Assembly (NCBI GenBank): GCA_944391115.1 | Contig: CALXSJ010000005.1 | Span: 1-64,000, forward strand | Length of the DNA stretch: 64,000 nucleotides | Source of the DNA: an uncultured Victivallales bacterium | Lineage (GTDB): Bacteria; Verrucomicrobiota; Lentisphaeria; Victivallales; UBA1829 | Direction of reading: 5' to 3' | Position numbers and translations under genes: made by a program | Shown: in pieces, positions 46,433-53,084 of the stretch | Position numbering within the stretch: the stretch's first letter is position 1 | Layout: every line of letters starts with the position of its first letter | Notes under the pieces: generated by a model | What the model was told of the DNA's origin: nothing | The model's database searches: none | Seen by the model: the letters and a program-made list of their open reading frames with translations, nothing else

Positions 46433-47359
46433 TTATTTTTTTTCGCTTTTTCCGGAAAAACGCTGCAGGAAACCGCGCGGGGAAATCCCGTAGCAGCGTT
46501 TGAAGCGGGAGGAAAAATTGAAGGCTGAGGAAAAACCGCATGCCGCTGCCGCCTCCTTGCAGGACAAGCCCTGCATTTCCAGAAGCATGCGAGCCTTTTC
46601 CATGCGGGTGCGCATGACATACTGATGCGGCGAGCAGTGCAGATACCGCCGAAAAAGCCGTGCAATGCTTGCGGGAGACAATCCGAAACGGGAGGATAGC
46701 GCCTCCAGACTCAGATCCGCTTCCGGATGCTGTTCCATATGCTGGCGGAGATTCAGCAGCGTTTCCGGCATTCCGCCGGGAATGATCTGCCCGGCCAGGG
46801 ACTGGAGCAGTTCCATGAGAATGCCTGCAATCCGGTGTTTTTGCGGAAGCCCCCTGCATTTCATGCATTCCTCCAGGCGAAAATACTGTTCGCGGAACCC
46901 GGAAATATCCTTCAGCTTCAGATAATACGCGTCCTTCAGACTGGAATTCCGCAGAAGCGAGGCAAGAGCCGTTCCCTTTACTGTGATGGAATATTTTTCG
47001 CAGAATCCCGCATCCCCGGTGGCGTATTCATAATCGCGGAACGGGTGAAAAATCATCAGGTCGCCAGGCTCCATCCGGCATGCTGTCCGGTTGTAGCGCA
47101 CGAATTCGCTGCCCGCGGCGACCAGACGCAGAGAAAGGAAATCAGGACGCACCAGAAGTCCCCGGTGTCCCTCCAGCAACCGGTAGCGGCTGACGGTGGA
47201 ACAGTAGAGCATGGAATCCTCCAGAAGACTGGATGCGGGATAAAATGCATGATAGCGGACACGCGGCACGGTCAGCGCGGCAGGGCCGTCTCCGCAGGCG
47301 GCAATGCGGTCGCGCCAGAAGGATTCCGGAAAAACAGATTCGGAACAGATCAGTTGCAT
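46433..47359 (-). CDS. AraC-family transcriptional regulator
   Basis: 308 aa. The N-terminal about 190 residues are a cupin-like effector region (RLVAAGSEFVRYNRTACRM, EPGDLMIFHPFRDYEYA, where a metal- or sugar-binding beta barrel is likely). The C-terminal AraC double helix-turn-helix consists of LEALSSRFGLSPASIARLFRRY and CKEAAAACGFSSAFNFSSRFKR, ending GISPRGFLQRF. It has no ribosome site (the leader reads AGTCAAAATG). It is divergent from the gene at 47570, with the inverted repeat CTGAAA-N8-TTTCAG between them, and lies 195 bp upstream of the macroglobulin gene on the same strand. Confidence 0.92.
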   Translation of the reverse strand: MQLICSESVFPESFWRDRIAACGDGPAALTVPRVRYHAFYPASSLLEDSMLYCSTVSRYRLLEGHRGLLVRPDFLSLRLVAAGSEFVRYNRTACRMEPGDLMIFHPFRDYEYATGDAGFCEKYSITVKGTALASLLRNSSLKDAYYLKLKDISGFREQYFRLEECMKCRGLPQKHRIAGILMELLQSLAGQIIPGGMPETLLNLRQHMEQHPEADLSLEALSSRFGLSPASIARLFRRYLHCSPHQYVMRTRMEKARMLLEMQGLSCKEAAAACGFSSAFNFSSRFKRCYGISPRGFLQRFSGKSEKK

Positions 47360-47569: not shown

Positions 47570-48427
47570 ATGAGAGAAAAAATCTGCTCCTGGGGCTATG
47601 TCCTCGACAAGGCGCCGACGGCGGCGCCGTTCGTGTTCGGGAAAACAAGATGCAGTCTGGAAACGGCCAGCCGGTATCTGGGCGCGGGCAAAACGTTTTA
47701 CATGAATTCGATGTTCTCCGCGGATTTCATGCGGAAGCATTTCCCCGACACGGAAGACGAGTGCATTGCAAACTGCATCGAGAACCGGCTTTCCGATTCG
47801 CACATGGAACTGCTGTCGGACATTCCGGAAATCTACTGCGCACTGGAGCACGGCAGGAGGGAGGCGTCCGGGAGAAGGATTGCGGAACTCTCGCTGAAAT
47901 ACGGAAACATCAAGGGAGTCAACTTCGACGATTTCAACAACGGGCCGCCGGAAATCCACATCAATCCGGAGGAGCTCAGGGAGTTCCGCGCCATGATCCG
48001 CTCCATCAATCCGGAACTGAAGATCGCCGTCGTCACCTATTCGCATCTTCCGCTGGAAAAACAGATCGTTCCGTTTGCGGATTCCGTGGACATCGTGTCA
48101 CGCTGGCGCTGGACTGCTTCGCAGGATTACTGGGACGACTATGAAAAAGACATCAAGGCCGTCCGCGAGGCGCTCGGCCCGTCGGGACAGATCATTCAGG
48201 GAATTTACCTGCACGACTTCGGTTCCGGGATGAAAAGCCGCTATCCCGTTCCGCTGGAGGTCTTTCAGAAAAGCGTAAGGACCGTCTGCCATGCCGCATA
48301 CGACGGATTCATCGACGGATTCATCATTCCGCAGTCCGGCTGGTTCAGCTCCGACGCTCATTTCGAACATGTCACGTGGATGAAACGCTATCTGGACTGG
48401 TTCGAGGATACGGCGACGCGGCGCTGA
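47570..48427 (+). CDS. unknown protein, possible TIM-barrel glycosidase-like enzyme
   Basis: 285 aa, no signal peptide. Repeated hydrophobic strand-turn patterns suggest a TIM barrel: ICSWGYVLDKA, NIKGVNFDDFNNGPPE, LKIAVVTYSHLP, VDIVSRWRWTASQ, GQIIQGIYLHDFGSG and DGFIIPQSGWFSSDAHFEHV. Acidic and aromatic residues at strand ends (FDDF, YLHDFG) are reminiscent of glycoside hydrolases, but I cannot assign a family. It is divergent from the AraC regulator at 46433-47359 and probably controlled by it. The AUG is preceded by only a weak purine stretch (GGCGGATC). It converges with the flavin reductase gene 3 bp away. Confidence 0.75.
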   Translation: MREKICSWGYVLDKAPTAAPFVFGKTRCSLETASRYLGAGKTFYMNSMFSADFMRKHFPDTEDECIANCIENRLSDSHMELLSDIPEIYCALEHGRREASGRRIAELSLKYGNIKGVNFDDFNNGPPEIHINPEELREFRAMIRSINPELKIAVVTYSHLPLEKQIVPFADSVDIVSRWRWTASQDYWDDYEKDIKAVREALGPSGQIIQGIYLHDFGSGMKSRYPVPLEVFQKSVRTVCHAAYDGFIDGFIIPQSGWFSSDAHFEHVTWMKRYLDWFEDTATRR

Positions 48428-51728: not shown

Positions 51729-51757
51729 TTGTGTTTCAGCGGAATGCGGTGTATATT
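51729..51757 (+). promoter_or_regulatory. sigma70-like promoter for the class II aldolase gene
   Basis: TTGTGT (51729-51734), a 17-bp spacer and TATATT (51752-51757), then AAGGAG at 51780-51785 before the ATG at 51792. Confidence 0.5.
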
Positions 51758-51791
51758 GCATATCCCAGTTTCAACCAACAAGGAGCCGATC

Positions 51792-53084
51792 ATGAATCTT
51801 GAAATGATGCACCCGCGCGATCTCATCACCCTTATCATGAAACGCCTTTACGGATACGGCATGACAACCACCTCCGGCGGCAACCTTTCCATCCTCGACA
51901 ACGAGGGCAACATGTGGATCAGCCCCGGCAGCGTGGACAAGGGCACGCTGCGTCCCGAGGACATCGTCTGCGTCAAGGCCGACGGCACGATCGAGGGCAT
52001 TCACAAGCCTTCCAGCGAATTTCCCTTCCACCGCCACATCTACAAGCTCCGTCCCGACATCAAGGCGGTGCTTCATGCGCATCCGGCGGCGCTGGTCGCC
52101 TTCAGCATCACCGGACGCAAGCCCAATACCTCTCTCCTGACCAAGGCGTCCGAGATCTGCGGCGACATTGGCTTCGCCGGCTATGAAGTTCCGGGAAGCG
52201 AGGCCCTCGGCAACCTGGTTTCCGCCGAATTTGAAAAAGGGCACAACTGCATTCTGCTTCAGAATCACGGCGTCTGCACGACGGGAAAAGACCTCCTCGA
52301 AGCGTTCGAACGCTTCGAGACCCTGGATTATCTGGCGAGAATTGAAATCAAGGCCGAGGCCCTCGGCAAAATCAAGCCGCTCGACGCGGAGACCCGCGCT
52401 CTCTCCCGCACCCTGGAAAAGAAACTCATGCCCGAGTTCATCCCGGCGGAACACTCCGTCCGCGAGTGCGAACTCCGCGAGGAGATGGTCAAGCTCATCA
52501 ACCGCTCCTACAACCGGATGCTCTCGTTCTCGACCGACGGCACGTTCTCCGCGCGCGTCTCGCAGGACCAGTTCCTCGTGACGCCCAAGGGACTCGACCG
52601 CATGAACCTCCGCAATGACGAACTGGTCCTGATTCAGGACAACTACCGCGAAATGGGCAAGGTGCCGAGCCGTGCGGCAGGCTTCTTCAAGGCGATCTAC
52701 GACACCCATCCGTGGGTCAACGCGATCATCGTCTCCAAACCCGTGAACATCATGGGCTATGCCGTGACGGAGGAGAAAATCGACACCAAGACCATTCCGG
52801 AAAGCTACATTCTGCTCCGCGACATCGTGGACATCCCCTGCGCGGAACATTACCGGGATCCGATGGCGACCGTGAAGAAAATCGCTCCGAACGCACCGGT
52901 CATCATGCTGCGCAACGACTGTCTGCTGACCGTCGGCAGCACACTGCTTCAGGCGTTCGACCGGCTGGAAGTAGCGGAGTTCTGCGCCAACAGCCTGCTT
53001 GCCTCCAAGCGTCTCGGCGGAGTCAAGCCGATCACTGAAGACCAGAAGAAAGATCTCATCAAGGCCTTCCACCTGCCGGAATAA
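51792..53084 (+). CDS. tandem class II aldolase/adducin protein with inactive second domain
   Basis: 430 aa from the ATG at 51792 (AAGGAG upstream). Domain 1 (residues about 5-195) has the full class II aldolase set: TTSGGNLSI, Glu76 in PSSEFPFHRH, the zinc ligands His95 and His97 in VLHAHPAA, and His159 in LLQNHGVC. It could act as a fuculose- or ribulose-phosphate-type aldolase or epimerase. Domain 2 (about 230-425) aligns with the same spacing, but the ligand positions are Val314, Lys316 and Asp376 and the Glu position is Ala295, so it should not bind zinc. It probably serves structure or regulation. Cytoplasmic; transcribed from 51729-51757 and followed by a good terminator. Confidence 0.88.
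   Translation: MNLEMMHPRDLITLIMKRLYGYGMTTTSGGNLSILDNEGNMWISPGSVDKGTLRPEDIVCVKADGTIEGIHKPSSEFPFHRHIYKLRPDIKAVLHAHPAALVAFSITGRKPNTSLLTKASEICGDIGFAGYEVPGSEALGNLVSAEFEKGHNCILLQNHGVCTTGKDLLEAFERFETLDYLARIEIKAEALGKIKPLDAETRALSRTLEKKLMPEFIPAEHSVRECELREEMVKLINRSYNRMLSFSTDGTFSARVSQDQFLVTPKGLDRMNLRNDELVLIQDNYREMGKVPSRAAGFFKAIYDTHPWVNAIIVSKPVNIMGYAVTEEKIDTKTIPESYILLRDIVDIPCAEHYRDPMATVKKIAPNAPVIMLRNDCLLTVGSTLLQAFDRLEVAEFCANSLLASKRLGGVKPITEDQKKDLIKAFHLPE

Follow-up and report, generated by a model that had tools for sequence, protein, structure and literature searches.

In an uncultured Victivallales bacterium, we observed a gene, denoted P0001, that encodes two fused class II aldolase domains, the first of which (D1) carries the full set of metal ligands whereas the second (D2) has lost them; the family to which it belongs is spread over three bacterial phyla. 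We assign a probability of roughly two in three to the reading that the product is a two-domain L-rhamnulose-1-phosphate aldolase of single origin in which D2 is a metal-free neighbor that closes the active site of D1. The gene occupies positions 51792-53081 on the plus strand of the window (the entire analyzed stretch of 64,000 nucleotides), with the ATG at 51792 and the stop codon at 53082-53084, as given in the initial annotation, and its product consists of 430 amino acids; a TTG start at 51729, which would extend the open reading frame to 451 amino acids, was judged inferior to the ATG with its Shine-Dalgarno site (Table 1). By the cut-off of the curated Pfam profile, P0001 is a member of the class II aldolase/adducin superfamily: it contains two PF00596 (Aldolase_II) stretches with a total of 226 bits against a cut-off of 22.2 and, when the domains are scored separately in the genome search, D1 (157.5 bits) and D2 (73.2 bits) each exceed the cut-off alone.

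Table 1. Features of the tandem aldolase gene in the window
Feature	Position	Strand	Basis
Shine-Dalgarno-like AAGGAG	51780..51785	+	sequence read directly; 6 nt upstream of ATG
Tandem class II aldolase gene, 430 codons + stop	51792..53084	+	end-to-end alignment with relatives
D1, residues 1-212, metal-site aldolase domain	51792..52427	+	PF00596; FucA hhalign 99.6%; ligands invariant 84/84
Glu76 codon (FucA Glu73)	52017..52019	+	hhalign; family alignment
His95 codon (FucA His92)	52074..52076	+	hhalign; family alignment
His97 codon (FucA His94)	52080..52082	+	hhalign; family alignment
His159 codon (FucA His155)	52266..52268	+	hhalign; family alignment
Interdomain linker, residues 213-221	52428..52454	+	secondary structure of AF2 model; family alignment
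D2, residues 222-430, metal-less aldolase-fold domain	52455..53081	+	FucA hhalign 98.8%; ligand loss; purifying selection
Ala295 codon, aligned to Glu76	52674..52676	+	profile alignment; family alignment
Val314-Ser315-Lys316 codons, 314/316 aligned to His95/His97	52731..52739	+	profile alignment; family alignment
Near-invariant D2 motif, residues 333-344, KTIPESYILLRD; family R-x-IPES-Y/F-I-x-L-R (333-343)	52788..52823	+	aligned to FucA Tyr113' loop
Asp376 codon, aligned to His159	52917..52919	+	profile alignment; family alignment
D2 C-terminal helix, residues 420-428, KDLIKAFHL	53049..53075	+	L422/F426 aligned to FucA Val202'/Phe206'

The profile alignment of the two domains (hhalign 99.9%, E 1.8e-37) pairs E76, H95, H97 and H159 of D1 with A295, V314, K316 and D376 of D2, and the phmmer alignments to solved FucA structures place the ligands at the same positions, so the four pairs proposed in the initial annotation proved correct at every residue. 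The same annotation described a fused pair of an active enzyme and a pseudoenzyme, a description to be abandoned should homologs with intact D2 ligands come to light. Such homologs were sought among 84 full-length relatives, including deep branches, and none was found: all four ligands are intact in D1 of 84/84 tandems, whereas D2 keeps none of them in 64, one in 20 and two or more in none, so the pair is well supported. Nor does any D2 position in these relatives carry a conserved histidine or cysteine, as might be expected of a relocated metal site. Judged by its residues, D1 has the three histidines and the catalytic glutamate that mark a metal-dependent class II (FucA/RhaD-type) aldolase, and D2, by the same measure, does not.

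The relatives were collected from the window's order, 289 Verrucomicrobiota genomes, rumen Clostridia, a set of 348 genomes from the phylum to which one of these Clostridia belongs (eight tandems, counting the center genome) and Persicobacter plasmids, and the 84 full-length tandems come from Verrucomicrobiota, Bacillota and Bacteroidota. A maximum likelihood tree was built from 25 tandems together with 11 single-domain aldolases; in it, every D1 falls in one group and every D2 in another (support 100/99 and 100/100), and the subgroups are mirrored in both halves. Because the two groups are separate and their subgroups recur, the tandem appears to have arisen once, by fusion or duplication, and D2 to have degenerated before the sampled lineages split; whether D1 and D2 come out as mutual nearest relatives hinges on the rooting and on the few outgroups, which include two long branches (FucA and AraD). 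The fusion, which had been called unusual, deserves that description only in part: it is no curiosity of one genome but a widespread family of single origin.

The genes that surround the tandem in relatives bear on its substrate. Gene orders that come from separate lineages include rhaA-tandem-rhaB (L092, L093), rhaA-rhaB-tandem (L094, in the window's family), rhaB-tandem-rhaA (L079), rhaA-tandem (L072) and rhaI-kinase-tandem (L134); in Persicobacter (Bacteroidota), the isomerase RhaI, which is unrelated to RhaA, and an FGGY kinase precede the tandem. In the Verrucomicrobiota sample, RhaA is present in 63 of the 66 tandem genomes (one of which, G147, has a single-domain match only and another, G273, a truncated match) as against 106 of the 223 others, with a Fisher p = 6.5e-14 that is too small because the genomes are not phylogenetically independent. 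A tandem without a RhaA match is found in G021, G027 and G231, and in the tandems of G021 and G027 the D2 residue Tyr339 is replaced with Phe; conversely, in seven genomes with RhaA (G011, G012, G019, G045, G073, G076 and G269), the tandem is the sole PF00596 protein. The tandem of the rumen Clostridia adjoins alaS, a HIT gene and prmA, a context that is uninformative, and RhaA is present in 7/7 of the genomes searched. G137 and G144 additionally have a single-domain aldolase near the tandem. On the strength of the rha operons and the co-occurrence with RhaA in relatives, the tandem is most likely an L-rhamnulose-1-phosphate aldolase, so that genomic context picks out rhamnulose-phosphate from the three substrates originally considered. 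It would then be a candidate to fill the pathway gap in genomes that encode RhaA and RhaB but in which the tandem supplies the only class II aldolase domains.

No curated NCBIfam model names the tandem aldolase. P0001 scores below the cut-off of the RhaD model TIGR02624 (45 against 401 bits) and of two FucA models, TIGR01086 (103 against 400 bits) and NF005302 (138 against 264 bits); TIGR02632 (RhaEW) is not among the best 25 NCBIfam matches listed for P0001, and P0001 contains no SDR domain. Conceivably, the same architecture could act on another 1-phospho-ketose (L-fuculose-1-P, 5-deoxyribulose-1-P or ribulose-1-P) or catalyze a different reaction, given that class II aldolases are promiscuous (PMC4207490) and that the best NCBIfam models for P0001, none of which comes near its cut-off, are those of fuculose-phosphate aldolase and 3-oxo-tetronate-4-phosphate decarboxylase. 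We consider this unlikely, however, since separate lineages place the tandem gene in compact operons, be it with rhaA/rhaB or with the unrelated rhaI, and since seven RhaA-bearing genomes have no other PF00596 protein.

Several other genes recur in these neighborhoods. A single Aldolase_II protein of about 350 amino acids, similar to the N-terminal part of RhaE and a possible partner enzyme of the tandem, adjoins it in L070, L071, L095 and L135-L140 and is located near rhaA in L098. A conserved protein of 467-476 amino acids, perhaps a transporter, is encoded beside the tandem or rha genes in two phyla (L070:12192-13592, L071, L095 and L134:9515-10942); NCBIfam yields no match for it, and for the L134 copy neither does Pfam. 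In L074 (2375-4696) and L079, a single-domain class II aldolase gene lies beside a homolog of lactate/malate dehydrogenase, near rhaA/rhaB and the tandem. This pair recalls the gene content of the Planctomycetes-Verrucomicrobia microcompartment, the aldolase of which belongs to class II (PMC4207490), a likeness that is drawn from these two genes and, for the aldolase, is limited to the single-domain neighbor in L074.

What D2 has kept becomes apparent from comparison with FucA, in which the chemistry is performed by Glu73 and by Tyr113' of the neighboring subunit (PMC11841055) and which, in a docking setup, receives Tyr113', Met114', Val202' and Phe206' from that neighbor (PMC11274987). The columns that are more conserved in D2 than in D1 fall mainly within residues 333-344 and 413-426, with the addition of R255, P369, L386 and D390 (the top twelve include 337, 426, 390, 335, 339, 369, 425, 386, 255, 413, 422 and 333), whereas the metal, glutamate, phosphate-site and other D1 residues head the D1-favored columns. 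In a permutation test with adjacent columns that are not independent and sequences that are related, the four FucA trans positions are shifted toward D2 conservation with p = 4e-5, or p = 8e-4 in the alternative register, both values being given because the register of Tyr113 is ambiguous by one residue and was picked after the alignment had been seen; the FucA cis set is shifted in the opposite direction (p = 0.0017), and the sets were taken from the literature, not from the conservation ranking. Tyrosine is absent from the corresponding D1 loop (110-122) in 77/84 relatives and present in the D2 loop in 69/84, and Phe is not among the commoner residues at D1 position 209 in the 84 relatives, a reciprocal loss that is expected from a division of labor between the domains. 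The pattern fits a shared active site of the FucA type, with a tyrosine and hydrophobic C-terminal residues contributed by the neighboring domain, and this reciprocal conservation lends support to the original suggestion that the second domain completes the interface. Since Tyr339 is replaced with Phe in 13/84 relatives (L016, L020-L025, L027, L028, L031, L075, L078 and L083), the acting group of D2 may be Glu337, which is near-invariant (82/84, with Asp in 2), or another residue.

An AlphaFold2 (AF2) model of the tandem, built with the family alignment, has a pLDDT of 91.4 and a pTM of 0.89, which is high for two domains of undefined arrangement and so suggests a defined one; among the PDB matches, there is no solved tandem structure, and the best of them span one domain (TMq at most 0.43). 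Together with the conservation pattern, the pTM points to packing of D2 on the D1 metal site. Given that D2 has lost the FucA cis residues but keeps the trans ones, which D1 has lost, D2 probably completes the site of D1 in a pseudo-tetramer with two Zn sites. Under this scheme, an aldolase domain would have been duplicated internally, or fused to another, once; D1 would bind the divalent metal, the phosphate and the enediolate, and D2, having lost its metal site, would have been retained as a dedicated structural and catalytic neighbor. The Tyr113'-type loop and the C-terminal helix of D2 would close a D1 site, the part played in the FucA homotetramer by the neighboring subunit. A pair of chains would make up a pseudo-fourfold ring, D1-D2-D1'-D2', that has only two metal sites where the homotetramer has four, and the reaction would be the cleavage of L-rhamnulose-1-P to DHAP and L-lactaldehyde.

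Retention of D2 as a pure structural spacer or oligomerization module that contributes no side chain to the active site would have a precedent in adducin, the aldolase domain of which is, like D2, a catalytically inactive member of the fold and persists as a tetramer (PMC12599920), although adducin is an actin-binding protein that lacks an active partner domain; moreover, R255, D390 and E393, conserved in D2, may serve in packing or in salt bridges. A spacer, however, gives no reason why the Tyr113' loop and the C-terminal helix should rank with the parts of D2 most conserved relative to D1, and we regard this explanation, too, as improbable. We are still more skeptical of an allosteric or sensory D2 that would regulate D1 through metal-free binding of a sugar phosphate or some other metabolite. 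The near-invariant polar residues R229, R238, R255, D269, E337, R343 and N375 could line a rebuilt pocket, but the D2 positions that match the phosphate and metal residues of FucA vary freely, and those that are conserved map mainly to the trans-interface segments, not to the former pocket. The substrate- and phosphate-binding residues of D2 itself are degenerate, with SGGN of D1 replaced by TEGT/ASGA and others and PSSE by PSRA, and the ligand sensor contemplated in the initial annotation accordingly lacks support.

Both domains are subject to purifying selection, with dN/dS of 0.04-0.21 in D2 and 0.01-0.16 in D1 at dS values near saturation. This selection, along with the fixation of the ligand pattern over three phyla, indicates that the pattern is not due to chance. 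Decay of D2 toward eventual loss, which the disappearance of the ligands and its somewhat faster evolution (mean column entropy of 1.86 against 1.47 bits in D1) might suggest, is hardly credible, as it is already contradicted by the full-length D2 in three phyla, the low dN/dS and the near-invariant columns.

The preferred reading, that of D2 as the neighbor that closes the D1 site, relates the tandem to several known systems. The FucA of E. coli (about 26% identity to the tandem in the fold comparison) and S. pneumoniae (PDB 1FUA, 4FUA, 4C24) shares with it the fold, the glutamate and three histidines, and the phosphate-binding segments, and its active site lies between neighboring subunits, an arrangement to which the tandem is likened by sequence pattern. 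FucA, however, is a single-domain homotetramer with four equal sites, whereas in the tandem the cis and trans halves of the site are apparently split over two fused, specialized domains. With RhaD and RhaE(W), the tandem shares the predicted reaction and the place in the rhaA-rhaB pathway. In passages of a comparative study of rhamnose pathways, the aldolases are RhaD, a single aldolase domain, and RhaE, a fusion of an aldolase domain and a dehydrogenase, and those passages do not include the tandem (PMC3870299), which would be a third architecture with but a weak match to the models of rhamnulose-phosphate aldolases. We lean, if only slightly, toward a single ancient fusion that turned a four-site homotetramer into a two-site dimer of unequal tandems, giving rise to a third, unrecognized type of rhamnulose-1-phosphate aldolase in three phyla. 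The dependence of an active enzyme on a dead paralog, as described for the trypanosome AdoMetDC and its prozyme (PMC6221367), is a functional analogy, those partners being separate polypeptides of an unrelated fold. We found no description of two class II aldolase domains in tandem in the literature, in which subscription papers were thinly covered, so novelty is unproven. The tandem offers a natural experiment on the passage of an enzyme from symmetry to asymmetry: the cis and trans halves, which co-evolve in a homotetramer, are here separately mutable, countable and comparable.

In the genome of the Victivallales bacterium itself, the tandem gene lies outside any rha operon, so the function of P0001 is assigned by homology and not from its own context. 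A rhaA gene is located on the same contig (88352-89593, minus strand), 35 kb from the tandem gene, a rhamnulokinase homolog is present, and AraD is encoded in an ara operon. The genome also encodes a distantly RhaEW-like fusion of an aldolase and a short-chain dehydrogenase of about 775 amino acids (L089; G000:C1:245410-245910, minus strand), which scores 248 bits with TIGR02632 against a cut-off of 568. The neighbors of P0001 in the window, namely, genes for an alpha-2-macroglobulin, an AraC regulator, a flavin reductase, a Na/Pi cotransporter, a radical SAM protein, NadA, PurL and a Na/H antiporter, are uninformative on the substrate. Elsewhere in the window, an open reading frame of 285 amino acids without a Pfam match (47570-48427, plus strand) is divergent from the gene for an AraC-family regulator (46433-47359, minus strand).
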